Assembly: GCA_027490155.1 (NCBI GenBank)
Contig: JAIXYP010000017.1
Location: 1-64,000, forward strand
DNA from: Cytophagaceae bacterium
GTDB lineage: Bacteria > Bacteroidota > Bacteroidia > Cytophagales > Flexibacteraceae
Length of the DNA stretch: 64,000 nucleotides
Direction of reading: 5' to 3'
The position numbers were made by a program, and so were the translations under genes. The first letter of the stretch is position 1. Each line of letters starts with the position of its first letter. The notes beneath the pieces are model-generated. The model was not told the origin of the DNA. It made no database searches and was given only the letters and a program-made list of their open reading frames with translations. Positions 1 to 62,780 of this stretch are shown one piece after another.

Positions 1-404
1 GACCAATTAGCCTCCAAAATGTCTGAGGCATGGGCCATCGCGCGGCTGATATCCCCGCCCAAAGCCCGTACAGGCGTTATCCAGAGGGCCACCAAGCCAG
101 TGTTTTTATTGGCTGGTTGCCCACCATTCCGATCTAACCAGTCCGACAAAATCGGGATAAACAACCCGTAGGTTTTGCCACTGCCTGTTGGGGCATTGAG
201 TAAGCCACTATGCCCAGCATTGTAGGCAGCGAGAACATCTTGCTGCCAAGGGAAAGCGAACCAATTTTTCCGCCTAAAAAACTGAAAGTAGGGATGGTCT
301 TGATCAACAGCGGTATTTGGTTGCCCTTCAAAATTGAGAGGGTCCGGATCTTTCGCCGATTCAACACCAGATGCTGTCAACGACTCCTCTGTAGGAAGTT
401 GCAT
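1..404 (-). CDS. Ligase-associated DEXH-box helicase (Lhr-like), N-terminal part
   Basis: The gene runs off the left edge, so only about 134 N-terminal residues are present. In the minus frame the protein reads ...NAPTGSGKTYG..., a Walker A motif (motif I) of superfamily 2 helicases, preceded by a Q-motif-like FPWQQDVLAAYNAGHSG and followed by LWITPVRAL (motif Ia). Family knowledge: Lhr-like helicases of this kind sit beside an ATP-dependent DNA ligase and an MBL-fold exonuclease in many Bacteroidota and Proteobacteria, and both of those follow here on the same strand. The probable role is unwinding DNA or DNA-RNA hybrids in repair. I chose the ATG at 404; the frame stays open to a GTG at 455, so a start 17 codons earlier is possible. 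It lies about 100 bases downstream of the ligase stop, so co-transcription is likely. Confidence 0.85.
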   Translation of the reverse strand, partial: MQLPTEESLTASGVESAKDPDPLNFEGQPNTAVDQDHPYFQFFRRKNWFAFPWQQDVLAAYNAGHSGLLNAPTGSGKTYGLFIPILSDWLDRNGGQPANKNTGLVALWITPVRALGGDISRAMAHASDILEANW

Positions 405-501
405 AAGCACATCCTGAGCAGGAAAAGTGGGCGTTTTGGTGGTTATGGCTAACACTACTTAGGTTGAATTGTTGTTGACGATCAGAAGGACTAACCCAAA
501 A

Positions 502-2124
502 TCAGCCAAGTTGGTTATCGGCTATTGCAGGTTCTGATGTCTGGCTTGCCAATAGTTTGAGCATATCTAGGGTATCTGCTTGGGTGGGCAACTTGTCTCG
601 ACGCCAACGCACGATGCGTGGGAACCTGACAGCAACTCCACATTTATGCCTAGTGCTTTTGTTGATCCCCTCGAAAGCCAACTCAAAGACCAACTCCGGA
701 TTGACTGATCGTACAGGCCCGAACTTTTCCTTGGTGTTTTTTTTGACAAAGGCATCCACTTCCACCAACTCCTTATCCGTAAGGCCACTATATGCTTTTG
801 CAAAAGGAACCAACAAATCACCATCCCAAACGGCAAAGGTAAAATCAGTAAAGAGGTTTGCACGGCGGCCGTGACCTGCCTGCGCATAGAGCATGACAGC
901 ATCAATGGTATAGGGATCAACCTTCCACTTGTGCCAACTACCTTTTTTGCGCCCAGTCTCGTATTGGCTATCATGGCGCTTGAGCATAAACCCCTCGGCA
1001 ACGTAATCACGACTTTGGTCACGCAGGGAGCTGAGCATTTCCCAACTTTCAAAAGCCACCACAGGAGATAAATCCATCACGGCATCTACACGGGCTTGGT
1101 CAAGGAGGCTTTCCAATATTTGGCGACGAACCTTCAAGGGTTGATCCCGCAGATCACGACCCTCTTGTTCCAGCACATCGTATGCTAAGATACGGATAGG
1201 GCATTCCTTTTGGTGTTTGGCGCTCACATTTTTGCGCATGATACGGGTCTGGAGAACCTGAAACGGGAGCGGTTTACCATCCTGAAAGCCTAATAGCTCA
1301 CCGTCTATTACAGTGCCATCTGGCAAACTATCCTTTAGCCCCAAAAACTCTGGGAACTTATCCGTCAGCAGCTCCTCGCCTCGGCTCCAGACAAATAGTT
1401 GCCCCTGCCGCACAATGATCTGGCACCTAATGCCATCCCATTTCCACTCGGCCTGCCAGTCTGTGATTGGCCCAAGTGTATCAACGGACTGCTCTAGCGG
1501 GTACGCCAACATAAACGGATAGGGACGACTAAGGGCATCTGCCGCATTTTCGTCCAACAGCAACCGATCAAAAGTTGTCTTGGTCGGCTCCCACTTGCCC
1601 ATCAATCGGTGTGTTAGCAGGTCCGCATCCTTGCCGAGGTATTGGCCCAATGCCTTTACTACTAATTTTTCACTCACCCCAATTCGGAACCCACCTGTAA
1701 TCAATTTATTGAGCACAAACCGCTCGTCTGGCTCAGTTCGTTGCCAAAGACCTACTAATGTTGCCTTTTTAGTGTCTTCATCTGCCTTGTCAAGAATTAT
1801 TAAGGTCATCATGACTTGAGAAAGACCAATAGGCTCAGGCGCAGTAGGAGGCGGCAACAGGATGGCAATCGTCTCGGCAAGGTCTCCAACAGTATGGTAA
1901 CAAGTCTCGAACAACCAAGGCTCAACCATTCCTAGTTCTGCAGCCCATAGCCGCATCAAGGTAGTATTAATGGTGCGCTTGGGCCTTTTGCCTGTCAGCA
2001 GGGCAATGCACCATAATTTATCTTCGTCTGGTACTGACGCAAAATACCGTACCACGGCAGCAACCTTGGCGTTTGTTTTGGATGTGGCATCCAGTTCGTC
2101 AACCAGTTGGGCAAACTGCTTCAT
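502..2124 (-). CDS. ATP-dependent DNA ligase
   Basis: 540 residues. The nucleotidyltransferase motif I is KWDGIR with the AMP-accepting lysine near residue 228, followed by WSRGEE and IDGELLGF (motifs Ia and III), and by MLKRHDSQYETGRKKGSWHK (motifs IV and V) near residue 385. The N-terminal 200 residues are the helical DNA-binding domain of LigB/LigI-like ligases; an OB-fold follows the adenylation domain. It seals nicks using ATP, in addition to the NAD-dependent LigA expected elsewhere in the genome. The ATG overlaps the stop of the exonuclease gene (ATGA, 2121-2124), so the two are translationally coupled. Context with the exonuclease and helicase marks it as the ligase-associated DNA damage response cluster. 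Identification is firm; the exact repair pathway in bacteria is not settled. Confidence 0.93.
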   Translation of the reverse strand: MKQFAQLVDELDATSKTNAKVAAVVRYFASVPDEDKLWCIALLTGKRPKRTINTTLMRLWAAELGMVEPWLFETCYHTVGDLAETIAILLPPPTAPEPIGLSQVMMTLIILDKADEDTKKATLVGLWQRTEPDERFVLNKLITGGFRIGVSEKLVVKALGQYLGKDADLLTHRLMGKWEPTKTTFDRLLLDENAADALSRPYPFMLAYPLEQSVDTLGPITDWQAEWKWDGIRCQIIVRQGQLFVWSRGEELLTDKFPEFLGLKDSLPDGTVIDGELLGFQDGKPLPFQVLQTRIMRKNVSAKHQKECPIRILAYDVLEQEGRDLRDQPLKVRRQILESLLDQARVDAVMDLSPVVAFESWEMLSSLRDQSRDYVAEGFMLKRHDSQYETGRKKGSWHKWKVDPYTIDAVMLYAQAGHGRRANLFTDFTFAVWDGDLLVPFAKAYSGLTDKELVEVDAFVKKNTKEKFGPVRSVNPELVFELAFEGINKSTRHKCGVAVRFPRIVRWRRDKLPTQADTLDMLKLLASQTSEPAIADNQLG

Positions 2125-3263
2125 ACTAGTGCGGTAGTTTGGGATTGCGATTGATCTTCGGTTGCTAATTGATCGCCTAGTTTATTAGGTTGGCCTAGGT
2201 TTGTATGAGTGGCCTCAGCAGGATCTAGTTCTATGGTTTCTTCATCGGCCTTCTGATTCATTGACTCCCCTTCGAACTCCGTCTTGGCAGGATAGGCTTC
2301 AAGACCTTGTTCGTTGAGGAATCGTGCCAAAATCTCCGTACTGCCATGGGTCACAAATACCCTTTCGGCTTCAGTAGCCGCAATGGCAGTAAGCAGACTA
2401 GGCCAGTCGGCATGATCGCTCAGGATAAATCCTTTGTCCATCCCAGCTCTACGCCTAATACCCCTTAGTGCATTCCAACCACTGGCCATTCCAGCTTCTA
2501 GTGGTTCAAGTTTGCGCATCCAGGCGCTACCTAGAGCGGCAGGTGAACATAACACGATGCCACGACGCAAATCTTCTTTGTCCTTGACTTGGCTTACAGG
2601 TATTGTTGCCTTGAGTTTCCAGCCATTGTCCTCCATCACGCGGTTAGTAGCGGCCACCGTGCCATGTGTATAAATAGGGCCAATGTCCGGATCCAGTAGC
2701 TGAAGTAAACGCTGGATCTTGCCTAGGCTATACCCAGCGAGAACCGTCGTGCGGCCATCAGCTTGGTTTTGGGCCCACCAGCTATTAAGCTGCTCAGCAA
2801 TCATGGCTTGGGGTTTCCACCGATAGATGGGCAGGCCAAAGGTGCTCTCCGTGATAAAAGTATGGCATTTGACAGGCTCGAAGGCAGGGGTCAGACCATC
2901 TGCCTCGACCTTGTAGTCACCAGCGGCCACCCAAACTTCCCCTTTGTACTCGACCCTGACTTGGGCCGAACCCGGGATATGACCCGCAGGATGGAATGAG
3001 AGCTTGACCCCATTCAAGAAGAAGGTCTGACCGTAAGGCACACCAGTAATTCCGATTTTGCCACCAAGTCGATGTTGCATCAGCGGCACATTGTCTTGGC
3101 ATACCCAATAGTGCCCCATACCAGGCCTAGCATGGTCGCTATGCGCATGGGTGACAACTGCGCGCTCGACCTTTCGCCATGGGTCAATATAGAAATCCCC
3201 AACGGGGCAGTAGATGCCACGCCCATCAAAAACCAACAACAAAGGCGACTTCGTACTACCCAT
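2121..3263 (-). CDS. Ligase-associated MBL-fold/beta-CASP DNA exonuclease
   Basis: 380 residues. It has the metallo-beta-lactamase motif HAHSDH (residues 39-44), a second metal site in AGDYKVE, a beta-CASP-type GYSLGKIQRLLQLL segment and SDHADW near residue 283. This is the architecture of SNM1/CPSF-73-like nucleases and of the bacterial ligase-associated exonuclease (often annotated as mRNA 3'-end processing factor). It probably trims DNA ends before sealing by the ligase encoded 4 bases into its own stop region. The last 45 or so residues are polar and acidic, look disordered, and lie outside the catalytic fold. It is the first gene of the minus-strand operon exonuclease-ligase-helicase. 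I see no clear TAnnTTTG element upstream. Confidence 0.9.
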   Translation of the reverse strand: MGSTKSPLLLVFDGRGIYCPVGDFYIDPWRKVERAVVTHAHSDHARPGMGHYWVCQDNVPLMQHRLGGKIGITGVPYGQTFFLNGVKLSFHPAGHIPGSAQVRVEYKGEVWVAAGDYKVEADGLTPAFEPVKCHTFITESTFGLPIYRWKPQAMIAEQLNSWWAQNQADGRTTVLAGYSLGKIQRLLQLLDPDIGPIYTHGTVAATNRVMEDNGWKLKATIPVSQVKDKEDLRRGIVLCSPAALGSAWMRKLEPLEAGMASGWNALRGIRRRAGMDKGFILSDHADWPSLLTAIAATEAERVFVTHGSTEILARFLNEQGLEAYPAKTEFEGESMNQKADEETIELDPAEATHTNLGQPNKLGDQLATEDQSQSQTTALV

Positions 3264-3711: not shown

Positions 3712-3743
3712 TTTGGTTTTGCAGACTGTTAAGGTTACCTTTG
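3712..3743 (+). promoter_or_regulatory. Bacteroidota-type promoter of the radical SAM/ABC export operon
   Basis: TTTG at 3712-3715, a 20-base spacer, then TACCTTTG at 3736-3743. Both boxes fit the Bacteroidota primary sigma consensus (-33 TTG, -7 TAnnTTTG), with the -7 box 47 bases before the ATG at 3791. Confidence 0.65.
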
Positions 3744-3790: not shown

Positions 3791-6013
3791 ATGGTAAAGG
3801 AGTTAAGTAAGTTTGCGATTCACTTAGCCAAGCTAAAAACGAAGGACCTCAAGCGGAGGTATTTATACCAATTTTTTCCGAAAAAACCTGTCGTTATCAA
3901 CCTCAATGCCAATGACATCTGTAACTCCAAATGCACGATGTGCAACATTTGGAAACAGAAACAAGGCTTTGAGTTTTCGCCTGATGACCTTGCCAAAATC
4001 CTGAAGGATCCCCTTTATTCCGACATCCAGCATATTGGCATAACTGGTGGGGAGCCTACCCTTCGTGAAGATCTACCTCAACTCTATGAAGCCTGCGCAA
4101 AAAGCCTGCCAAGCCTAAAGGGGCTGTCTATCATCACAAACGCCATTAAGGAGAAAGACGTCATCAAACGGGTGACCGAAGTGATTGAGGTGTGTAAGAA
4201 GCACAACAAATCCTTCTCGATGATGGTCTCTCTGGACGGATTCGGATCCATGCATGACCATATCCGTGGGCGCGAAAACAACTGGCAGACTGCGATTAAT
4301 GTCATCAACCACTTTTCCAAGAATACAGACATTCCTGTTGCCACCGGCAGCACCATTAGCAAGGACAATGTCTATGACATCGATGAGCTGCTAGAGTACA
4401 TGATCGAGAACGGCATATATGGCCGTTTCCGTGTAGCAGAGTACATCAAACGTCTCTATAACGACGATCGCAATGATGTAATCAGGAACTATAGTGATGA
4501 CGAACTCTACGCGCTTCAGTGCTTCTTTCATAAGGTAGAGCACACCTTCGAAACGAACCCTGTTTACAAACGGACGTACAAGTCAATCCAGAGCGTCCTT
4601 GGCGGTGGCAAACGTACCATAGGCTGCCCATATCAGGCAGAGGGTGTCGTACTTGATTCAAAAGCGGATTTGCATTATTGTGCCCCTAAGTCCGAGATCA
4701 TCGGGAACGCAATCCAAACACCTTCAATCAACCTCTACCAAGATAATCTGGACGAGCGAAAAGGCCTCTTGAGCAGCAAGTGTGATGATTGTATCCATGA
4801 CTATCACTATCCAGTCACATACAACGAGGAGGTAACTGCCTTCAAAGAGAAACACTTTAGGTCCCTAATCCACCTCGATACCCGTTATAGCCGGAAGAAG
4901 TATTATCTTCTTCTTGGACACCTTCAACTTGCAAAGCTTCGGAGCAAGAACCAAGCACTACCTATTGGCCTAAAGGTCTTAATAGTCGGTTGGTATGGCA
5001 CCGAAACCGTCGGAGATAAGGCAATCCTAGGTGGCATAATGGCCAACTACCGGAAAGATCATCCCGGCGTCACATTCGTTGTTGGCTCGCTCAATCCGTT
5101 TATCACGGTGCGTACGCGTCAGGAAATGAATGAGGACTTTGAGGTGATTGATGTTTATTCGTCTGCCTTTTTTGATGCCATTGTTTCGTGCCAGCACATC
5201 GTGATGGGTGGCGGCCCATTGATGGATATTGACGAGTTGGCAGTCGCCCTTCTAGGGTTTAGGCTTGCCAAGACTATGGGCAAAGAGCGGGTGATTGCAG
5301 GCTGCGGCATCGGACCATTATTCCATGATCGATATGAGTCTGCCGTCAAAGAAATGCTTGCCCTAGCAACCCAGATTTCAGTCCGGGACACAAAGTCGCA
5401 GCAAAAGGCCATGGACTGGACAGGCCGCAAAGACATCCCGATGACTGGCGATCCTAGTTTGGTCTATCTGCGAAGCCTCAAGTTTGACCAAGATCTGCCT
5501 AAAAAACGCGAAATCGCCTGTTTCCTTCGCGAGTGGCCAACTGAGTACAATATGGATGTCGAGCCAGCGGTTTTCGAAAAAAAACGCCAACAGTTCGAGG
5601 ATCAGTTAGCCAAGTCTATTCTTGATCTAGCCCTCACGAACGACTGTACCATTAAGCTGTACTCCATGCATACTTTTTGGGTAGGCGGTGATGACAGGAT
5701 CTACTATCGTGCCTTCATCAAGAAACACTTTGCTGACTATCCAGATCTAATATCCTACGAAAAAACGCCTTCTTCAGTCGATCAGATCACGAAGGCCATG
5801 AAGCAGAGCTTCCTCAATATCACGATGCGGTTCCACTCGGTTGTCTTTGCGCATACCCTTGATACTCCTTTCATCGCCATCGACTACACTAATGGCGGCA
5901 AGATCTTCCAGTTCCTGAAGGACAATCAAGCCAGTAGTCACTATATCTCGCCGCAACAAATAGCCGAAAGCACCACTGCACTTAGCAATGTCGCTTCAAC
6001 AGTACTTGTCTAA
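3791..6013 (+). CDS. Radical SAM / polysaccharide pyruvyl transferase fusion protein
   Basis: 740 residues with two clear halves. The first (about 35-385) is a radical SAM enzyme: CNSKCTMC (C44, C48, C51) is the CxxxCxxC that binds the 4Fe-4S cluster, followed by the ITGGEPTLR SAM-binding motif. Later cysteines (GCPYQ..., HYCAP, SSKCDDC) resemble a SPASM/twitch auxiliary-cluster region. The second half (about 390-735) is a polysaccharide pyruvyl transferase (CsaB/WcaK type): GTETVGDKAILGG, VMGGGPLMD, and the C-terminal ITMRFHSVVFAHTLDTPFIA. The family attaches ketal pyruvate to surface sugars. The genes 30 and 23 bases downstream encode a Wzm/Wzt exporter, so the product probably modifies the exported glycan. 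The fusion is unusual and the reaction of the radical SAM half is unknown. It is cytoplasmic, with no signal peptide. Confidence 0.9.
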   Translation: MVKELSKFAIHLAKLKTKDLKRRYLYQFFPKKPVVINLNANDICNSKCTMCNIWKQKQGFEFSPDDLAKILKDPLYSDIQHIGITGGEPTLREDLPQLYEACAKSLPSLKGLSIITNAIKEKDVIKRVTEVIEVCKKHNKSFSMMVSLDGFGSMHDHIRGRENNWQTAINVINHFSKNTDIPVATGSTISKDNVYDIDELLEYMIENGIYGRFRVAEYIKRLYNDDRNDVIRNYSDDELYALQCFFHKVEHTFETNPVYKRTYKSIQSVLGGGKRTIGCPYQAEGVVLDSKADLHYCAPKSEIIGNAIQTPSINLYQDNLDERKGLLSSKCDDCIHDYHYPVTYNEEVTAFKEKHFRSLIHLDTRYSRKKYYLLLGHLQLAKLRSKNQALPIGLKVLIVGWYGTETVGDKAILGGIMANYRKDHPGVTFVVGSLNPFITVRTRQEMNEDFEVIDVYSSAFFDAIVSCQHIVMGGGPLMDIDELAVALLGFRLAKTMGKERVIAGCGIGPLFHDRYESAVKEMLALATQISVRDTKSQQKAMDWTGRKDIPMTGDPSLVYLRSLKFDQDLPKKREIACFLREWPTEYNMDVEPAVFEKKRQQFEDQLAKSILDLALTNDCTIKLYSMHTFWVGGDDRIYYRAFIKKHFADYPDLISYEKTPSSVDQITKAMKQSFLNITMRFHSVVFAHTLDTPFIAIDYTNGGKIFQFLKDNQASSHYISPQQIAESTTALSNVASTVLV

Positions 6014-6043
6014 ACCCATCGACAAATAGTTTTTACGTCCCTC

Positions 6044-6904
6044 ATGTCCAATCATATTTCGAGTTCAGCTCCGACCATCATCAGCAATAAGCGTAGCTTT
6101 AGCCTTGCTACCTTGCGCGAATTGTGGCAGTATCGTGACCTGATAAGAGTTTTCGTTTACCGAGATCTGGTCTCGATTTACAAGCAAACCGTACTTGGCC
6201 CATTCTGGTTTGTAATCCAGCCAATCATCACTACCCTGACCTTCACGATCATCTTCGAAAAGGTCGCCAAGCTACCTACCGAAGGCATTCCGTCAATGTT
6301 GTTTTACATGTCTGGGATCATTTTCTGGAGCTACTTTGCCGAGTGTCTGACCAAAATATCGAACACATTTGTCCAGAACGCCAACCTCTTCAGCAAGGTT
6401 TACTTCCCGAGGCTAGTGGTTCCGATATCACAAATCATCTCGAACTTCATCAAATTTAGCATCCAGTTTGGGCTATTCACGATCCTGTACCTATTCATGT
6501 TTCCAGGGTCAGAGCGCGCTAGCAGCTATAATGCGCTCAACCTATTGCTCTTACCTGTGGTTCTGTTTGCATTTGCCTTACTTAGCTTCTCCCTAGGTCT
6601 TATCGTATCCTCTATCACGATCAAGTATCGTGATGTGGCTTTCCTGATCCAGTTCGGGATCCAGCTCCTGATGTATGGCTCGGCAGTGATCTACCCGATT
6701 ACTACAGTGCCAGTTAAGTACCGCATCTTTATCGAGCTCAATCCGTTAACAGGCATTTTTGAGACTGTCCGCTTTACCTTGTTTGGTACGCCGATGCCAG
6801 AATTATGGGTACTATTATACAGCATAGGGTTCACTCTTGTCTCTACCTTGTTTGCGATCTCGTTGTTTTCTAAGGTTGAGAAAAACTCAATGGACATCGT
6901 CTAA
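6044..6904 (+). CDS. ABC-2 type polysaccharide export permease (Wzm-like)
   Basis: 286 residues with six hydrophobic segments. The N-terminal stretch, VYRDLVSIYKQTVLGPFWFV, is characteristic of Wzm/TagG/RfbA permeases; FSKVYFPRLVVPIS and the C-terminal ELNPLTGIFETVR are further family signatures. It forms the membrane channel that moves undecaprenyl-linked glycan (O-antigen, capsule or similar) across the inner membrane. It starts 30 bases after the fusion gene and ends 22 bases before the ATPase gene, so it is the middle gene of a three-gene operon. The length is normal for the family. Its substrate cannot be read from the sequence. Confidence 0.93.
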   Translation: MSNHISSSAPTIISNKRSFSLATLRELWQYRDLIRVFVYRDLVSIYKQTVLGPFWFVIQPIITTLTFTIIFEKVAKLPTEGIPSMLFYMSGIIFWSYFAECLTKISNTFVQNANLFSKVYFPRLVVPISQIISNFIKFSIQFGLFTILYLFMFPGSERASSYNALNLLLLPVVLFAFALLSFSLGLIVSSITIKYRDVAFLIQFGIQLLMYGSAVIYPITTVPVKYRIFIELNPLTGIFETVRFTLFGTPMPELWVLLYSIGFTLVSTLFAISLFSKVEKNSMDIV

Positions 6905-6926
6905 TCCCATCTAGCCCATCAGCACC

Positions 6927-8213
6927 ATGACAAAGCGCGTCCTTGAGGTTAATAACCTAAGCAAATCCTACAAACTTGGCCTCATCAATACAGGGAGCCT
7001 CGTAAATGACCTAGGCGAATACTACCGACGCCTAACTAAAAGGGGGTATAATCCTGGCCAAATAGAGCTCAGCGCCAAAGCCAAGCCAGCTGAGGAAAGT
7101 AAAAAGAAGTATCACCAGGCGTTAAACGACGTCAGCTTCACCCTTAACGAAGGCGATGTTTTGGGTGTCATCGGCAAAAACGGCGCTGGCAAAAGTACCC
7201 TGCTCAAGATATTATCACGCGTCACTACCCCGACCTCGGGCGAGGTCAGGATCTACGGACGCCTAGCATCTTTGCTAGAGGTCGGCACAGGGTTTCACCC
7301 CGAGCTCACTGGGCGTGAAAACGTGTTCATGAACGGAGCCATCCTCGGAATGCGTAAGGCTGAGATCACCAAGAAATTTGACGAGATTATCGCATTCTCT
7401 GGTGTAGGTCAATATATCGACACTCCAGTCAAACGCTACAGCTCTGGCATGTATGTTAGGTTAGCGTTCGCTGTTGCTTCCCACCTAGAGCCCGAAATCC
7501 TGATTGTAGATGAGGTTCTGGCTGTGGGCGACTCAGCCTTCCAAAAAAAGTGTCTTGACAGGATGATGGAAGTCAGCCGGTCTGGCCGAACCGTTTTGTT
7601 TGTATCGCACAACCTAAGTGCTGTCAAGCAGCTATGCAACCGTGGCCTTTTCTTGAGGTCAGGCACTAGCATTTTCGAAGGTGACATCGACAAGGCACTT
7701 TCGCTTTACTATGAAGATGGAGTAGCTACCGATTTCAGCAATCCTGTGCGAGACATCAGGCCATTTGCGCGTAAAGAGTGCTTAGGCAACCTAACTATCT
7801 CGACAATCACGTTCAACAAGGCATCCTTTGTCGTAGGAGACAATTGGGAAATCGAAATCAAACTCGAAAATCACAAACCTGGCAAAGAGTATAAAGATCT
7901 CTTGCTAGACTTCGCCATTCATGATCGGTATGACAACAAACTAATTCACCTAACAAACATATTTTTAGGTGCTGATAGGTTGTCCTTTCAACCAAGTGAC
8001 GTTTACAAATTCTCGATTCCATCGATAGATCTATCGCCTGACCGTTACAATTTATTCATGTCCCTCCGGGCCAATGAGGAGATTGAGGACTGGATAGGCG
8101 AGCCCGTTCAGTTTGATATCATAGAGAGCAATAACTACGGATTCAGCAATTCGTCTCTTATCAGAGGGATGAGCCAGCCTAAAGCCAAGTTTCAGGTTAT
8201 CCAGAATGCTTAA
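6927..8213 (+). CDS. ABC transporter ATP-binding protein with C-terminal glycan-binding-type domain (Wzt-like)
   Basis: 428 residues. Residues 1-260 form the ATPase: Walker A GKNGAGKST (about 83-91), LLEVGTGFHPELTGRENV (typical of Wzt/TagH), the ABC signature YSSGMYVRLAFA, and Walker B ILIVDEVLAVGD. An insertion at about 20-65 between the first strands is usual in this subfamily. Residues 265-428 form an extra beta-rich domain resembling Wzt_C, the immunoglobulin-like domain that in E. coli O9a/O8 systems recognises the terminal modification of the finished chain. Pairing such a domain with a pyruvyl transferase/radical SAM enzyme in one operon suggests that the modification is the export mark; this is inference. 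A hairpin follows 38 bases after the stop. Confidence 0.92.
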   Translation: MTKRVLEVNNLSKSYKLGLINTGSLVNDLGEYYRRLTKRGYNPGQIELSAKAKPAEESKKKYHQALNDVSFTLNEGDVLGVIGKNGAGKSTLLKILSRVTTPTSGEVRIYGRLASLLEVGTGFHPELTGRENVFMNGAILGMRKAEITKKFDEIIAFSGVGQYIDTPVKRYSSGMYVRLAFAVASHLEPEILIVDEVLAVGDSAFQKKCLDRMMEVSRSGRTVLFVSHNLSAVKQLCNRGLFLRSGTSIFEGDIDKALSLYYEDGVATDFSNPVRDIRPFARKECLGNLTISTITFNKASFVVGDNWEIEIKLENHKPGKEYKDLLLDFAIHDRYDNKLIHLTNIFLGADRLSFQPSDVYKFSIPSIDLSPDRYNLFMSLRANEEIEDWIGEPVQFDIIESNNYGFSNSSLIRGMSQPKAKFQVIQNA

Positions 8214-8294: not shown

Positions 8295-8771
8295 CTACCA
8301 TACTTTATTATAGTCAATGGCTTTGTCGGCTTCCCAGCCCATAAAGACCACGTCGGCCATGGGCTTGAACCCTGCTTTAAGGTAGAGTGATTGCGCATTG
8401 TAATTCTCGATACCTGTCTCGAGCAAGAGCCCGCGGCCGCCAGCATCGAGGCAGTGTTGTTTGGCTACCTCTAGCAATGCAGAACCTACTCCTTTCTTTC
8501 GAAACGCTGGCACCACGAAGACATCATTCAGAATAAAGTAGGCACTCAGCTCGTAAATCGAGAAACTGTGGAAGAGCTGGACAAAACCCATTATGGCGCC
8601 AGATGTCCGGTCTGGAGAAACGAAAAGTGTTGTATCTTGATTCCGAAGTCGAGCAGCCAAAAAATCGGTAACTGCCTTAGTGTCATTAGCCAGATCGTAA
8701 AAGGACCGATATTGTTCGTAAAGCGGGACCAGTTGCTCTAGGTCTGCAATGGTGGCTCGGTAGATCGGCAT
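8295..8771 (-). CDS. GNAT-family N-acetyltransferase
   Basis: 158 residues, one complete GNAT domain. The acetyl-CoA binding motif A is visible as VFVVPAFRKKGVGSALLEVA, followed by the LLLETGIENYNAQSLYLKAGF segment (motif B) that closes the fold. It transfers an acetyl group from acetyl-CoA to an amine; the substrate cannot be deduced, and small-molecule, protein and sugar amines are all possible. It starts 64 bases after the MBOAT gene on the same strand and may be the last gene of the SGNH-MBOAT-GNAT group. The ATG at 8771 gives the usual family N-terminus (MPIYRATIADLEQL), with no signal peptide. Confidence 0.88.
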   Translation of the reverse strand: MPIYRATIADLEQLVPLYEQYRSFYDLANDTKAVTDFLAARLRNQDTTLFVSPDRTSGAIMGFVQLFHSFSIYELSAYFILNDVFVVPAFRKKGVGSALLEVAKQHCLDAGGRGLLLETGIENYNAQSLYLKAGFKPMADVVFMGWEADKAIDYNKVW

Positions 8772-8835: not shown

Positions 8836-10350
8836 CTAAAACTGAAAGTAGATAAAGGGCTGCACCTCTTGGTCTGCAAACTGCAGGATGACTTGGACCA
8901 CAGCCAGGAAAAACAGCCACTTGACTACCCATGGCGCCTTGGTGAACATAGCTTGGCACCATTTTTTCCAACTAGCAGGCAGGAAATGAAGGCCAAGACC
9001 TAGTCCCAGAACGCCCAGAACCAAAGGACGTGTATCCACAAAAGCAGGCAGCAAGGTCATTACGTCCGTGTCATACCAAATTTGGCTTAGCATCTCATTG
9101 GCAAGGTCTAGATCACTAGCGCGGAAATAGACCCAAAGCACGGCCACAAAGTGCAGGGTCAGCACAACACCAACAACACGCATCAGAGGACTATCAAGCC
9201 AGCGCACATTTTTGGTCAGCCTTGACCAATATTTATGCAGTGTCAGGGCGGTGCCATGGAAGGCCCCCCAAATCACAAATTTCCAGCTGGCACCGTGCCA
9301 AAGGCCGCCCAGCAGCATTGTAACCAATAGGTTTCCTGACTGGCGCGCCTCGCCCTTACGGTTGCCGCCTAATGGGATATATACATAGTCCCGTAGCCAT
9401 GTACTTAGCGAAATATGCCAACGGTGCCAAAACTCGGTGATGTTAACGGCTGTATAGGGTGCATTAAAGTTTTCGGCTAGGGTATAACCCATGATGGCAG
9501 CCAAACCTAGGGCCATATCAGTATAGCCACTGAAATCACAATAAATCTGGATGGTATAGGCATACATCGCCACCAAGTTCTCAAACCCAGAGTAGCCCGC
9601 CGGATGGGTAAAAACCAAATCAGCGTATCGGGCTAGGTAGTCTGCAATGATGGCCTTTTTGATCAAGCCCTTAATCACAAGGAAGGCACCTAAGTTGATC
9701 TCTGCGTTCGACGGAAAGGTAATCTTCTTGATCTGGGGCAGAAAATCACGTGCTCGTACTATAGGCCCCGCCACTAAGTGGGGGAAGAAGGACATATAGA
9801 AGGCATAGTCCAACAGACTTTTGGTCGGCACGATAGTCCCCCGATAACTGTCAACTACGTAGCTTATCGTCTGGAAAGTGTAGAAACTAATGCCAATGGG
9901 AAGGAAAATATCCCAAGCATGAAAGGGCTCTCCATGCAGCCAAAACAGGTTGCCGAGCAGGAAGTTGGAGTACTTAAAATAGCCTAACAAGGCCAAGTTG
10001 AGCACGACCGAAACTACGAGCAATACCTTGGCCCAAGGTGTAGTGCGCCACCGAACAATGCCGAGCGCCACCAACCAATCGATCACGATGCTTGCGATCA
10101 AGATCAGGAGGTAAGACCCGCTAGACTTGTAATAGAAGAATAGGCTAAAAAGCAGGATATAGCTGATCCTGACCACTTTATAGCGATAAACTAAACCATA
10201 AAGTGTGATAAAGATCGTGAACAGCACGAAAAACTGCCCACTGTTAAACAGCATCGGCCTTGCCGGATCATAGGTCCAGAAAGAGGCAATTCGGTCCCAG
10301 TTCAGGTCCTGAAACGGAAGCCATTCGGCCTTGAAGTCTGCTGCTGACAA
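8836..10350 (-). CDS. MBOAT-family membrane O-acyltransferase (AlgI/DltB-like)
   Basis: 504 residues with around ten membrane segments. The MBOAT hallmarks are present: HLVAGPIVRARDFLPQI, YCDFSGYTDMALGLA, EFWHRWHISLSTWLRDYVYIPLGGNR (quoted in part by position, about residues 305-330) and the catalytic histidine in GLWHGASW near residue 350. Family members pass acyl groups (usually acetyl) across the membrane to extracytoplasmic polysaccharide or teichoic acid. The short N-terminal extension before MLFNSGQFF is common in Bacteroidota homologues, so I keep the ATG at 10350. Upstream on the same strand is an SGNH-fold protein, the usual partner that places the acyl group on the sugar. It may have its own promoter (10397-10404). 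Confidence 0.93.
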   Translation of the reverse strand: MSAADFKAEWLPFQDLNWDRIASFWTYDPARPMLFNSGQFFVLFTIFITLYGLVYRYKVVRISYILLFSLFFYYKSSGSYLLILIASIVIDWLVALGIVRWRTTPWAKVLLVVSVVLNLALLGYFKYSNFLLGNLFWLHGEPFHAWDIFLPIGISFYTFQTISYVVDSYRGTIVPTKSLLDYAFYMSFFPHLVAGPIVRARDFLPQIKKITFPSNAEINLGAFLVIKGLIKKAIIADYLARYADLVFTHPAGYSGFENLVAMYAYTIQIYCDFSGYTDMALGLAAIMGYTLAENFNAPYTAVNITEFWHRWHISLSTWLRDYVYIPLGGNRKGEARQSGNLLVTMLLGGLWHGASWKFVIWGAFHGTALTLHKYWSRLTKNVRWLDSPLMRVVGVVLTLHFVAVLWVYFRASDLDLANEMLSQIWYDTDVMTLLPAFVDTRPLVLGVLGLGLGLHFLPASWKKWCQAMFTKAPWVVKWLFFLAVVQVILQFADQEVQPFIYFQF

Positions 10351-10396
10351 GTTGTGTTGCGGAAGTATAGATGTCTCTGTTTGGGTAACAGGGCCG

Positions 10397-10404
10397 CAAA
10401 GATA
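10397..10404 (-). promoter_or_regulatory. -7 box upstream of the MBOAT gene
   Basis: The minus strand reads TATCTTTG, a match to TAnnTTTG, 47 bases before the MBOAT start. The nearest upstream TTG is 25 bases away, longer than ideal. A perfect 7-base inverted repeat (10411-10417 and 10434-10440) lies between and beyond the boxes. Confidence 0.35.
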
Positions 10405-10482
10405 GTGAATATCAGATAGACATATTAGTCAAAATCTGATCCTTAATCCTATGATAGATTGGGGTTTGTGTCTGGGCAGACC

Positions 10483-11325
10483 CTATGCCTTGCGCCCAGC
10501 TTTGGCAACAACTTTAGCAGGCACAGCAGAGGCTGAGCTTATCCCGATAGAAACTTTAGCAGCATCAGGATTACCTACTTTAGTCTTGGGGGCTTTAGCC
10601 AACACAATCGGGAAAGCGGACTCTTCTACAATCCACTTGGCTACTGAGTCTGCCCAGATGCGGGAAGCAGGAATTGTCGGGTGGGCACCATCACGACGAC
10701 GCTCTAGTTTGATGTCCTTACTGATGAAGAGCTGCTCTTGTGGTACGTTGGCGCTGATCATTTCGGTCAGGCCAGTGTCCTCTGTCCAGTTTGGTGGGCT
10801 GACCCATAGGTACTTAAAGGTATCCAGCTTGGCAATTATCGTCTTGAGGTACTTTTCACGGTTCCAGATATTAGGAATCGTAAGCTCGTTGGCACCGAGG
10901 CAGAAGATAACCAAAGTAGGTTTAAAACGTTTGATGGCGACCTCTAGGCTGTCAGACTTAGCCCACTTAATGGTGCTAGACCCAGACCAAGCTGCTTCGC
11001 TAATCTTATGTCCGTTGTTTTTGGCATAATCGCGCAGGCCATAGAGTAGGCACTCGGCCATACTGTCGCCTGCAAGCAAGATGCGCTGTTTGCTACTGTC
11101 AACATCGCGTGGCTCAGGTTTGGCAACGACAAGCACCGTGTCTGGCTTGGCAATGACCACTTTTTTCGGAGCTGGCTTGGTAACAAAAAAGTCCTTCAGG
11201 CTCCATTGGTTGATGGCCAAATCGTCCGATAGCTGGAACGGATTAGCCAAAAATGCGTAGGCTGCGAAGGCCATCACGCTTATCCATAAAAAAACAATTA
11301 GGCCGGTGTAACGGGGCAACTTCAT
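10483..11325 (-). CDS. SGNH-fold hydrolase/acyltransferase (DUF459-like), MBOAT partner
   Basis: About 280 residues from the ATG at 11325, a start chosen because it places the single membrane anchor (GLIVFLWISVMAFAAYAF) at the N-terminus and leaves room for the promoter at 11387-11394. The SGNH blocks are visible: AGDSMAE (Ser about 88), LGANE (block III, Asn) and DGAHP (Asp/His about 212 and 215). In AlgI/AlgX- and OafB-type pairs such a periplasmic domain moves the acyl group received from the MBOAT protein onto the glycan, and the MBOAT gene is 132 bases downstream. The C-terminal 45 or so residues are Ala/Lys/Val-rich and look disordered. The pairing is well supported; the glycan is unknown. 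Confidence 0.85.
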   Translation of the reverse strand: MKLPRYTGLIVFLWISVMAFAAYAFLANPFQLSDDLAINQWSLKDFFVTKPAPKKVVIAKPDTVLVVAKPEPRDVDSSKQRILLAGDSMAECLLYGLRDYAKNNGHKISEAAWSGSSTIKWAKSDSLEVAIKRFKPTLVIFCLGANELTIPNIWNREKYLKTIIAKLDTFKYLWVSPPNWTEDTGLTEMISANVPQEQLFISKDIKLERRRDGAHPTIPASRIWADSVAKWIVEESAFPIVLAKAPKTKVGNPDAAKVSIGISSASAVPAKVVAKAGRKA

Positions 11326-11768
11326 ATCAAGTAGCGCAGGAAACTGAAACGTGCGGGGGTGAACAAAGTGCAACAAATCAGCTACGCAAAGGTACGACGA
11401 AACTACCCGTCCTCAGCCCTAGGATCCACAAATTATCAGACCATACCAGCATGCCATAGCACTAAAATTAGGGTTACCAAACAGCCATATGACCCCGATT
11501 CGATAAGCCCAGATTTCGACAAAATCAGATTCGGGCGAAGAAAAAGAAAGTCAATTTTGGCCCGGTCAACCTAAAATGATCCCGGGTTGATTTTTGGGCA
11601 AATAACAGACCTATACCAAGGCTAAAAGCTGACCATATCATTCGGATTTTTCTTACTTAGTCTTTCTTGCTGATCCTACCACGGATGAGGCCTCAAACCT
11701 AGGATGTGTTGCGTCTTGCGAGGTATGATCAATATCTGTTAGGCCCTTGGCATTATCTTGCAGCTGAA
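11326..11768. other. Divergent intergenic region
   Basis: About 440 bases between the SGNH gene (minus) and the glycosyltransferase gene (plus). It contains the SGNH promoter box. I see no further gene or RNA in it; short frames on the plus strand have no recognisable product. Confidence 0.5.
11387..11394 (-). promoter_or_regulatory. -7 box of the SGNH/MBOAT group
   Basis: The minus strand reads TACCTTTG, a match to TAnnTTTG, 62 bases before the chosen SGNH start at 11325. No TTG is found at the ideal distance. Confidence 0.4.
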
Positions 11769-13520
11769 ATGGCACAGCAAACCACCCTAAAGACCAAGTT
11801 AGACTCTAGCACAGGCCTCGACCTCAATATCCGTAGTAATTGGTATTGGGGCTTTTTGGTCGGGGTAATCGTCCTGACCTATCTTGCTGGCTACCAGATC
11901 ACATTAATGGATGTTGATGCGGCTCAGTATGCCAGTATCAGCCGCGAGATGGCCGAGACCGGCAACTACCTAGAGGTCACCAATCGTTATCATGACTATC
12001 TAGACAAACCACCCTTGTTGTTCTGGCTCGGAGCAGTTTTCATCCAGATCCTGGGGCCGCATGATTGGGCCTACCGACTGCCGACCTTATTGTTTGCCTT
12101 GTTGGCTGCTTACAGTATCTATAAATACTGTCGCTTTTTTTATCCCGAGCTCACGGCCCGTTTAGCTGGTATCATTCTTCTTGGTTGCCAAGCCCTGATC
12201 TTGACCGCTCATGATTGTCGAACGGATACAATCCTGATGGCTGCAGTTACCTTCTGCATCTGGCAGGCCACAAGCTATGTGAAAACCAATCGGTCGCTCA
12301 ACTTCTATGGGGCTTGCCTAGGACTTGGTATGGCCTTACTTACTAAGGGACCGATCGGTGCGGTTGTGCCCGTGGTTGCGCTCGGCGCCGACTGGGCCAT
12401 TAAACGACAGTGGCGCAATATCCTGCGCCTAGAGTGGCTTAGTGCCTTAGTTGTGGTGGCTGCCTTGTTAGCCCCAATGAGCTATGGTTTATACCAACAA
12501 TGGGGGTGGCATGGCGTCAAGTTTTATTACTGGACACAAAGCTTTGGCCGCATCACCGGCGAAAGCGAATGGGATAATGGTGCCGACCTGAGTTTTCTAT
12601 TCACGAATCTGTTATGGTCATTCCTGCCCTGGACTCCATGGTTCTTAGCTGGGATCTACCTTGCCTTTCAGGACCTAGTCAAACGAAAATTACGCCTGAC
12701 AGAACACCAAGAGGCAGCTAGCATTATCGGTTTTCTGATTCCACTTCTGATGTTGTCCACCTCTCGTTACCAGCTACCACATTATAGTTATGTGTTGCTG
12801 GGCCTAGTGGCTGTCTTGGCAGCAAGGGCGATGGTCGTCGGCAACCAAACCCCGTTGGCCTCTATATTGGGATGGTACTTCGCCTACTTGCTGTCGGGCT
12901 TTTGTGCCTTGTTACTCGGCCTTGCGTTCTACGTTACAGATTTCGGCACACTGGCATGGTTAATTTGGGCGACTTTGGTTTTGGGATGGCTTCTAAAAAC
13001 CTATCTAGAGGTTAGGCTAAAGGCAATCCCTTTGGCTCTGTTCACGTCCTTGGTTTTGTCAATCTGCCTAGCAAATATCACCCTTAGCAGCCTTTATTAC
13101 CCCACCATCCTAAGCTACCAAGCGCCAACGACAGCTCTTGCGATTTTGGCTGATAAAAAAATCAACCTCGACCACTACATCACCTATGAGTTCGAGAGCC
13201 ATGCTGCAGACTTCTATGCTGGCACCGCCATCCCAGACTACCGATCTGCAAAAGAATTAGCACAAGAACTTAGCCCTGACCTCAGCTACTTCATACTGAT
13301 CAAAGACAGCAACCTGCCCAAACTAGATAGCATTGGTCTCAAGTACGAAACGGTAGCCCTGTTACAGGACTATCATGTCACGAAGCTCACCTTACCCTTC
13401 CTGAACAAGGCCACCCGTGCAACCAAGACAGAGCCTTGCCAGATTGTCAAGACCACCAAAGTCGGCCTGGCTTATGCCCAGCCCGCAGTACTTGGTTCTC
13501 AATCCAGAGGGCAACATTAA
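11769..13520 (+). CDS. ArnT/PMT-like membrane glycosyltransferase (GT39/GT83 type)
   Basis: 583 residues from the ATG at 11769 (MAQQTTLKTK...); the frame is also open from a GTG at 11706. About eleven to twelve membrane segments follow a cytoplasmic N-terminus. The first periplasmic loop carries MDVDAAQYASISREMAETG (conserved acidic residues) and YLDKPPLLFWLGA, the signature of ArnT-like transferases that use polyprenyl-phosphate sugars. Members add a sugar to lipid A, glycans or proteins on the periplasmic face. Placed next to export and acylation genes, it probably decorates a surface glycan or lipid. The last 74 bases overlap the 3' end of the converging gene on the minus strand. Confidence 0.9.
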   Translation: MAQQTTLKTKLDSSTGLDLNIRSNWYWGFLVGVIVLTYLAGYQITLMDVDAAQYASISREMAETGNYLEVTNRYHDYLDKPPLLFWLGAVFIQILGPHDWAYRLPTLLFALLAAYSIYKYCRFFYPELTARLAGIILLGCQALILTAHDCRTDTILMAAVTFCIWQATSYVKTNRSLNFYGACLGLGMALLTKGPIGAVVPVVALGADWAIKRQWRNILRLEWLSALVVVAALLAPMSYGLYQQWGWHGVKFYYWTQSFGRITGESEWDNGADLSFLFTNLLWSFLPWTPWFLAGIYLAFQDLVKRKLRLTEHQEAASIIGFLIPLLMLSTSRYQLPHYSYVLLGLVAVLAARAMVVGNQTPLASILGWYFAYLLSGFCALLLGLAFYVTDFGTLAWLIWATLVLGWLLKTYLEVRLKAIPLALFTSLVLSICLANITLSSLYYPTILSYQAPTTALAILADKKINLDHYITYEFESHAADFYAGTAIPDYRSAKELAQELSPDLSYFILIKDSNLPKLDSIGLKYETVALLQDYHVTKLTLPFLNKATRATKTEPCQIVKTTKVGLAYAQPAVLGSQSRGQH

Positions 13521-62045: not shown

Positions 62046-62780
62046 TTAGAGGGTATTGTTCTGGATATCAAGCTCTAGGGCTTTAGCGAAGTACTTGGAC
62101 TCCCTAGCCTTTTTGTAGAGCTCGGCATGTTTGGGTTTATGACAATCAGAGCCTATGAAACTGACCATTCCCTCGTCAATGAGGCGCTCGGCTAGTTTGC
62201 GTGGGGCATTGTCATAATAGCCTATCAAGGACATGGCGTTGATCTGGAACAGGATGCCAGAGTCATAAATCTTTTTGACCGAATCCCAATTGCTCTGCAA
62301 GTAGGTATAGCGCTCAGGGTGGGCATATATGGGTCGGTAGCCCAAGCTCTGGAGCATCTTTACAACCTCCACCAACATGATGGGGCGGGTCATGAAGGCG
62401 GTCTCTATCAGGACGTGATTACGGGTTCCGAGGGTCAGAATCTCTTGCCCCTCACTGACTAGGCTCATAAAGCGCTCGTCTAGGAAGTACTCAGCCGCTG
62501 CTTCAATCTGGATCGTGAGACCTTCTGCATCTGCTGCACTCCTTACCTCTTCTAGTTTCCCTCGGATGATCTCAGGTGTGTTGTCATAACCTGTCGTGAT
62601 ATGCGGAGTTGTGATCACTTTGCGGTAGCCCATCTCCTGAAAAGCGCGTAGCATCGTTATGCTTTCCTCCACATTGGCCGCCCCATCATCAATGCCTGGC
62701 AACATGTGTGAATGGAGGTCAACAACAGGAAAATCAAGATCGGCGGAAGGTTTCCGCTTTCCGAACAAAGAACCGAACAT
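62046..62780 (-). CDS. PHP-type tyrosine-protein phosphatase (CpsB/CapC family)
   Basis: 244 residues. PHP metal-binding motifs: VDLHSHMLPGIDDGA (residues about 20-34), TTPHIT, EAAAEYFLD, YAHPERYTYL and GSDCHKPKHAEL. Members are manganese-dependent phosphatases that dephosphorylate the BY-kinase controlling capsule or exopolysaccharide assembly (CpsB, YwqE). No kinase or Wza/Wzc gene is in the window. It lies upstream of the GH63-like gene on the same strand, 36 bases apart. Confidence 0.93.
   Translation of the reverse strand: MFGSLFGKRKPSADLDFPVVDLHSHMLPGIDDGAANVEESITMLRAFQEMGYRKVITTPHITTGYDNTPEIIRGKLEEVRSAADAEGLTIQIEAAAEYFLDERFMSLVSEGQEILTLGTRNHVLIETAFMTRPIMLVEVVKMLQSLGYRPIYAHPERYTYLQSNWDSVKKIYDSGILFQINAMSLIGYYDNAPRKLAERLIDEGMVSFIGSDCHKPKHAELYKKARESKYFAKALELDIQNNTL

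Follow-up and report, generated by a model that had tools for sequence, protein, structure and literature searches.

The window, a stretch of 64,000 nucleotides from a Cytophagaceae bacterium (contig JAIXYP010000017.1, positions 1 to 64,000), contained three consecutive open reading frames on the forward strand: a protein in which a radical SAM half and a polysaccharide pyruvyl transferase half are joined in one chain, a Wzm-type permease (286 aa), and a Wzt-type ATPase (428 aa) (Table 1). The genes were separated by 30 and 22 bases, respectively, and the layout described in an earlier note on this DNA was recovered in full. The fusion gene was preceded by a match to TTTG-N20-TAnnTTTG, which we take to be a Bacteroidota-type promoter consensus; since this pattern occurred twice in the window against 1.83 matches expected by chance, the position of the match alone is suggestive. 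No RNA element was detected within the window at the gathering threshold. The three-gene cluster contained no glycosyltransferase, as previously stated, and none of the 28 GT2 (PF00535) matches in the genome fell on this contig. A putative transferase of the PMT_2 family was encoded at 11706-13520, near the cluster and separate from it.

Table 1. Features of the locus encoding the fusion protein and the ABC exporter (window positions).
Feature	Position	Strand	Remarks
Candidate Bacteroidota-type promoter, TTTG-N20-TAnnTTTG	3712..3743	+	47 bases 5' of the fusion gene
Radical SAM (twitch-like) and polysaccharide pyruvyl transferase fusion	3791..6013	+	740 aa, intact
Radical SAM half, residues 28-391	3872..4963	+	CxxxCxxC 44/48/51; GGEP 86-89; auxiliary-cluster cysteines 279/297/331/334
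Pyruvyl transferase half, residues 392-740	4964..6010	+	R680, H682, and K704 match Pvg1p PEP contacts
Wzm-type ABC-2 permease	6044..6904	+	Sole such permease detected in the genome
Wzt-type ATPase with Wzt_C-like C-terminal domain (~residues 285-428)	6927..8213	+	Trp389 aligned with A. aeolicus Wzt Trp362

The N-terminal half of the fusion matched Pfam Radical_SAM (PF04055; residues 42-200) with 55.8 bits against a cut-off of 29.5, and the CxxxCxxC motif reported earlier was confirmed: C44, C48, and C51 were kept in all 12 rows of the alignment of homologues (which was without L025, although this locus is counted among the 13 genomes described below), as was the SAM-binding GGE-type motif (G86, G87, E88, and P89). 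The proposed auxiliary-cluster-like region was also borne out, because C279, C297, C331, and C334 were invariant in the 12 aligned homologues, giving seven predicted cluster cysteines in all. SPASM (PF13186) gave no match in the window's protein at E 0.01 and a weak match in one homologue (L026; E 0.022), and the four invariant cysteines suggest an auxiliary region of the shorter twitch type. The best fold match listed was BlsE (Z 22.5, rmsd 3.2, 284 residues), with which the peptide maturase SkfB was tied (Z 22.0, rmsd 5.9, 295 residues), while SkfB was the best match by sequence in a profile comparison with solved structures (E 2.8e-18). The scores were below the cut-off of each of 25 listed NCBIfam families, including those of BlsE (38.4 against 400 bits) and SkfB (38.3 against 300 bits). 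By sequence and predicted fold, this half is equally near to peptide maturases and sugar enzymes.

The C-terminal half matched PS_pyruv_trans (PF04230; residues 408-700) with 90.4 bits against a cut-off of 25.3, and the match covered model positions 3-279 of 280, in agreement with the full pyruvyl transferase domain claimed earlier for the same chain. R532, R580, R680, H682, and K704 were kept in 12 of 12 aligned rows. In a profile alignment to 5ax7, which was weak overall (15.2 bits, E 0.073) and ungapped in the motif region, the last three residues corresponded to R337, H339, and K361 of Pvg1p, the PEP contacts according to excerpts of PMC10435577, while R148 and R207 of CsaB were mapped to R532 and R580 by motif order alone. 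The protein scored below the cut-off of the CsaB equivalog (TIGR03609; 107.6 against 213.1 bits), and was the only PF04230 protein detected in the genome. In the AlphaFold model (mean pLDDT 87.4, pTM 0.87), the pyruvyl transferase half showed a GT-B-like fold, and helices lay between the two halves; the absence of Pvg1p among the 50 fold matches listed was uninformative either way. Degradation of the SAM-binding or pyruvyl transferase site, which the earlier note had named as evidence against its proposal, was ruled out because the SAM and PEP motifs were invariant in 12 of 12 rows.

A search for the same two-domain architecture elsewhere, as had been recommended, identified the pairing in 13 distinct genomes of Bacteroidota, Rhodothermia, and Cyanobacteria. 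The halves were mostly fused: they formed a single chain in 12 genomes (interrupted by an in-frame TGA in L025) and were separate, as two overlapping genes, in one (G1366). This count excludes a near-identical copy from the same genus (G001/L022) and matches confined to the radical SAM part in Micrarchaeota (L028) and Bdellovibrio (L029), and L034, which shares its coordinates with L026, was treated as the same locus. Single-chain fusions persisted in lineages with merely 25-26% identity to the window's protein. Relatives were found in at least 4 of 395 genomes (E 1e-30), at least 4 of 386 (E 1e-40), 2 of 101 (E 1e-40), and at least 2 of 395 (E 1e-60). Each count includes the genome at the search centre, and those for the sets of 395 and 386 are lower bounds, since among the matches listed no genome had more than two scored candidates. 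Identity to L023 was 57% in the radical SAM half and 46% in the pyruvyl transferase half. Trees of the two halves had their main groupings in common and differed in long branches, including those on which the split genes of G1366 were placed. A phage or plasmid origin of the fusion was rejected: the phage search gave no match, none of 36 stretches of viral contigs that fitted a pattern encoded a relative, and the single plasmid match was to the radical SAM part alone (27% of the query).

The complete ABC exporter described 3' of the fusion gene was also recovered. Wzm matched ABC2_membrane (PF01061) with 65.9 bits against a cut-off of 26.9, Wzt matched ABC_tran (PF00005) with 80.3 bits against 25, and Wzt was related to that of A. 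aeolicus (8dku) at E 9.6e-62. Its extra beta-rich C-terminal domain, when scanned alone, matched Wzt_C (PF14524) at E 2.5e-6 with 28.0 bits, just under the cut-off of 30.4, and seven strands were predicted beyond residue 285 in a low-confidence model. The proposed linkage of the fusion to Wzm/Wzt held in part of the loci: the three genes adjoined one another in the window's genus, and in 5 of 13 loci both Wzm and Wzt lay no more than ~7 kb from the fusion, with Wzt alone in one more (Wzt in 6 of 13 altogether), whereas Wzx-type flippases were encoded instead in 5 of 13 loci, with no Wzm/Wzt in the stretch read.

The steadier partner of the fusion is a GT4 glycosyltransferase. In 8 of 13 loci, a GT4 gene of one family stood directly 3' of the radical SAM-pyruvyl transferase gene, beginning 15 bases or less from its stop codon, and a ninth locus (L035) had a GT4 of the same family fused into the chain itself. 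The 3' neighbour in L036 and L054 was a more distant glycosyltransferase (58.6 and 65.1 bits, respectively), and no such gene stood directly 3' of the fusion in L027; conversely, L094 contained the same GT4 with no fusion within the 20 kb read. In the window's genus, the GT4 did not adjoin the fusion, and its homologue in the window's genome (E 6.3e-90) was encoded on a separate contig (C46), where its neighbours were a GT2 gene, a methyltransferase gene, and a conserved gene with no Pfam match. For the GT2 and the gene without a Pfam match, homologues that aligned along most of the sequence were encoded close to the fusion in other loci, while the methyltransferase gave just a short match there. 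The suggestion that the glycan is made elsewhere is consistent with this arrangement, in which the transferases of the candidate glycan are encoded off the window.

Because relatives in distant bacteria are encoded among surface-sugar genes, usually beside one particular sugar transferase, we propose that the fusion probably modifies a surface glycan by unusual chemistry. On balance, we favour a bifunctional tailoring enzyme for one surface-polysaccharide sugar, partnered with the GT4. The N-terminal half would bind SAM and two Fe-S clusters, and its 5'-deoxyadenosyl radical would change the sugar, the presumed substrate; the C-terminal half would add a pyruvate group from PEP to the same sugar; and the GT4 would build or extend the residue on which the fusion works. 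In the window's organism, the GT4 and the products of its three neighbouring genes would be supplied from C46, and the finished lipid-linked glycan may leave through the Wzm/Wzt encoded beside the fusion, both contigs thereby serving one glycan.

According to the proposal in the earlier note, the product of the fusion would be a new terminal cap (a pyruvate ketal plus a radical-installed change), and recognition of this cap by the C-terminal domain of Wzt would license export, restricting it to capped chains. The adjacency of the three genes in this genus, the proximity of Wzt in six loci (of Wzm also in five), the extra domain itself, and the detection of one Wzm alone are all compatible with such a role; however, five loci carry Wzx-type flippases, with no Wzm/Wzt in the stretch read. 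Furthermore, although the ATPase domain of the window's Wzt was 65-68% identical to those of six other fusion-linked Wzts, the identity of its C-terminal domain was 10-18%. This domain class occurred in relatives of the same order, and in five such relatives no full-length match to the fusion protein was found. Trp389 is the counterpart of the residue that lids the methyl cap in A. aeolicus Wzt according to excerpts of PMC9445017. Of the 11 order relatives found by the window's domain, 9 had this tryptophan, as against none of the six fusion-linked Wzts. The methyltransferase on C46 could supply a methyl cap. In Klebsiella O1b, the pyruvate cap is dispensable for export, as described in excerpts of PMC10629545. 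Because of the flippases and the dissimilar Wzt domain, the cap reading, which these sequence comparisons leave weak for the window's locus, is considered unlikely. On the other hand, Wzt may read a cap at L024, L052, and L053: their Wzt C-terminal domains (L052a being one of two in L052) were alike across Bacteroidota and Cyanobacteria (32-62% identity, 66-202 bits), more so than to any comparison domain, although the order relatives used for comparison (10 for domain identities and 11 for Trp389) were picked by similarity to the window's domain, so that their closeness to it and their distance from L024/L052a/L053 are both partly built in.

Alternatively, the target of the radical half might be the pyruvyl group itself or PEP and not the sugar ring, in which case the ketal would be converted to a different linkage, for instance a carboxyethyl ether or a branch joined by a C-C bond. 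Some radical SAM sugar epimerases use a cysteine as a hydrogen donor, and none of the seven invariant cysteines is left over for this function; the persistence of one chain at 25-26% identity also fits consecutive steps on one group. Since the conserved pairing would equally fit any two modifications of one residue, and no sequence feature names the substrate, we regard this alternative as quite unlikely. It appears very improbable that the pyruvyl transferase half alone works on the glycan while the radical half, joined to it by chance, serves otherwise (for example, in peptide maturation). The SkfB match and the separate genes of one genome point in this direction, but Bacteroidota and Cyanobacteria have both retained the pairing, the two halves give trees that agree in their main groupings in spite of the differing long branches, and the radical SAM half is the better conserved. 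As for the bifunctional tailoring enzyme, it is conceivable, though doubtful, that its two catalytic halves and the GT4 constitute one assembly unit that installs a group new to bacterial glycans: a PEP-derived substituent that is remodelled by radical chemistry, or carried on a sugar so remodelled, before export.

Several known systems resemble parts of the locus. The fusion shares PF04230 with CsaB, Pvg1p, and WbbZ, as well as the PEP-contact Arg, His, and Lys of Pvg1p and, in the model, a GT-B-like fold; however, CsaB from P. alvei, with its 396 residues (excerpts of PMC10435577), has no room for an additional radical SAM half, and the excerpts of PMC10629545 mention none for WbbZ. The CxxxCxxC and GGE-type motifs are common to the fusion, BlsE (a cytosylglucuronate decarboxylase acting on a sugar-nucleoside), and SkfB, whereas the fusion is far under the model cut-offs of both and carries a second catalytic domain. 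Like the cap-reading O-antigen exporters of E. coli O8/O9a and A. aeolicus, the window's exporter pairs Wzm with a Wzt that carries a C-terminal domain, but four residues were missing from the alignment in the trap loop, and nothing indicated that the product of the fusion is recognized by this domain. Klebsiella O1b likewise combines a pyruvyl transferase with an ABC-exported glycan and genes that stand apart: the excerpts of PMC10629545 describe a terminal pyruvate added by WbbZ, genes at an unlinked locus, and an exporter with relaxed specificity, and mention no radical half, unlike the window's protein.

No publication joining "polysaccharide pyruvyl transferase" or "pyruvyltransferase" with "radical SAM" was found in a literature search that lay mostly outside subscription journals, nor was there anything on point among the matches listed for radical SAM enzymes tailoring exported polysaccharides. 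Pyruvylation was termed mechanistically unexplored in a 2023 paper (abstract of PMC10435577). The conserved fusion and its recurrent glycosyltransferase partner represent a defined three-activity system for in vitro work. If the fusion is active, a glycan residue that is new would come to light; should the radical half turn out not to act on sugars, fusions of this kind would have an unexpected function. If the assembly unit is real, a radical SAM route to surface-glycan decoration would be common to Bacteroidota and Cyanobacteria. Among the organisms that carry the fusion, one has a strain name: Dysgonomonas macrotermitis DSM 27370 (L023).

At the sequence level, the pairing of a radical SAM (rSAM) half with a polysaccharide pyruvyl transferase (PPT) half is conserved across phyla. 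Both halves were present in 13 distinct genomes (scans and searches), not counting a near-identical same-genus copy (G001/L022): the window's genome, Dysgonomonas macrotermitis (locus L023), Bacteroidia (L024), Winogradskyella (L025) and Rhodothermia (L026) MAGs, a Xenococcaceae cyanobacterium MAG (L027), three further genomes of the latter phylum (L051-L053), and G391 (L036), G354 (L035), G879 (L054) and G1366 (L090). In G1366 they are separate, overlapping neighbour genes, and the Winogradskyella fusion is broken by an in-frame TGA. The fusion is rare: at least 4 of 395 genomes in the window's phylum, at least 4 of 386 in that of L027, and, full-length, only the window's genome and G001 among the 98 of the relatives search. 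The rSAM and PPT trees agreed in their main groupings and disagreed on long branches; the PPT half was less conserved, and the window's position in its tree was poorly supported. Relatives of the N-terminal half with radical SAM only (L028 and L029) each adjoin genes glycan-like by eye.

The cluster of this fusion with a Wzm/Wzt exporter, described in the earlier note, was borne out by the ORF layout and Pfam domains, with intergenic gaps of 30 and 22 bases. ATPase residues 65-397 matched Aquifex aeolicus Wzt (8dku; E 9.6e-62), while Wzt_C on its last part scored 28.0 bits, slightly below the cut-off (30.4). The MBOAT and SGNH-like genes facing Wzt are a possible glycan O-acetylation pair, judging from their domains. 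The row at 6-3263 resembles a helicase-ligase-exonuclease repair cluster.

Features in the window and at related loci (window unless a locus is named)
Position	Strand	Feature
3791-8213	+	Three-gene cluster
3791-6013	+	Gene 1, fusion, 740 residues; Radical_SAM 42-200 and PS_pyruv_trans 408-700, both above Pfam cut-offs
6044-6904	+	Gene 2, Wzm; ABC-2 permease (Pfam)
6927-8213	+	Gene 3, Wzt; ABC ATPase (Pfam)
8836-11376, 8295-8771	-	MBOAT O-acyltransferase adjoining weakly SGNH-like protein, and GNAT
62046-62780	-	CpsB/CapC-type capsule phosphatase, close to contig end
6-3263	-	Consecutive genes: piece of a DEAD-box helicase (contig end), ATP-dependent DNA ligase, protein weakly matching metallo-beta-lactamase
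L035:5267-12139		Single 2290-residue protein: rSAM, PPT, GT4, TPRs, weak B12-binding match, second radical SAM domain
L027:1387-2211		PhyH-type dioxygenase-like
L090:12419-13255		PhyH-type dioxygenase-like
L024:8062-9306		Wzt, shared C-terminal domain type
L052:11677-12948		Wzt, same type
L053:6644-7891		Wzt, same type
L028:2317-3387		rSAM only (Micrarchaeota MAG)
L029:4526-5530		rSAM only (Bdellovibrio MAG)

Both enzyme halves keep intact motifs in the alignments. Seven cysteines (CxxxCxxC, 279, 297, 331 and 334) were invariant in all 12 aligned rSAM rows (L025 excluded), the last four as predicted for one auxiliary cluster. A cysteine is the hydrogen donor in one kind of radical SAM epimerase; this role for the rSAM half is mildly disfavoured, because no further cysteine was invariant in these rows. 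The structure model was confident (pLDDT 87.4, pTM 0.87), with BlsE and SkfB tied as the folds nearest to the rSAM half and UDP-GlcNAc 2-epimerases (6vlb; Z 21.9, rmsd 3.3, 302 residues), which have a GT-B fold, nearest to the PPT half. R532, R580, R680, H682 and K704 of the PPT half were invariant in 12 of 12 rows, and the last three aligned with R337, H339 and K361 of Pvg1p (5ax7). PMC10435577 equates these with CsaB R306, H308 and K328, mutants backing H308 and K328 in PEP binding and docking giving R306.

Judged from gene order, the rSAM-PPT pair is tightly coupled to a GT4 glycosyltransferase, and exporters of both types occur in the polysaccharide clusters concerned. A GT4 of one family starts 15 bases or fewer from the rSAM-PPT stop in 8 of the 13 loci (L023-L026, L051-L053 and L090), overlapping it in four, and lies in the same chain as rSAM-PPT in L035, where the next gene encodes a multi-transferase protein (~1730 residues). 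The downstream glycosyltransferase is a more distant one in L036 and L054; none directly follows the fusion in L027 or the window. The PhyH-type genes near rSAM-PPT in L027 and L090 are 45% identical. Among the papers listed by the literature searches, none joins the radical SAM and pyruvyl transferase enzyme types; a radical SAM half and a GT4 that recurs as its partner set this pyruvyl transferase apart, the kinds of component being already known. We propose that the radical half would change a sugar, the PPT half would pyruvylate it and the GT4 would build with the product, which Wzm/Wzt would export in the window's organism.

The suggestion that the glycan is made elsewhere gained a concrete candidate, though not proof, in contig C46 of the same genome, from its gene set and because the only Wzm and only PF04230 hit detected genome-wide lie in the window. 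C46 carries the best GT4 homologue (E 6.3e-90; a second, on C4, E 1.9e-87) beside genes for a GT2 and a methyltransferase and a conserved gene that matches no Pfam family, by eye a putative transferase. Other genomes encode relatives of the GT2 (28-31%) and of this last gene (39-41%) close to the fusion; the methyltransferase matched over only ~100 residues.

The proposal that the fusion makes a cap licensing export, read by the Wzt C-terminal domain, looks weak for the window's locus. In the ~12-22 kb stretches surveyed around the 13 loci, five have both Wzm and Wzt near the fusion and one has Wzt alone; another five (L026, L036, L051, L054 and L090) have Wzx-type flippases, and neither exporter type was found in those of L027 and L035. 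Against the six other fusion-linked Wzts, the window's is 65-68% identical in the ATPase domain and 10-18% in the C-terminal domain. The latter occurred in 13 of 390 genomes of the order (the window's and G001 included), and the fusion protein had no full-length match in G003, G033, G036, G051 and G067, the five of the 11 other domain-sharing relatives that were searched with it. Trp389, kept in 9 of 11 order relatives and none of the six fusion-linked Wzts, aligns with a tryptophan of A. aeolicus Wzt that forms a lid over a methyl cap (PMC9445017); given the methyltransferase on C46, a methyl cap would be just as good a guess for the window's system. In Klebsiella O1b, terminal pyruvate need not be read (PMC10629545). 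In favour of the licensing cap, the C-terminal domains of L024, L053 and one of two L052 Wzts, which span Bacteroidota and Cyanobacteria, are 32-62% identical to each other. Those of L025 and L023 weakly resemble L024 (26.5 and 20.4 bits), so that the fusion may be accompanied by one type of domain outside the window. The other L052 domain lies closer to those of some order relatives.
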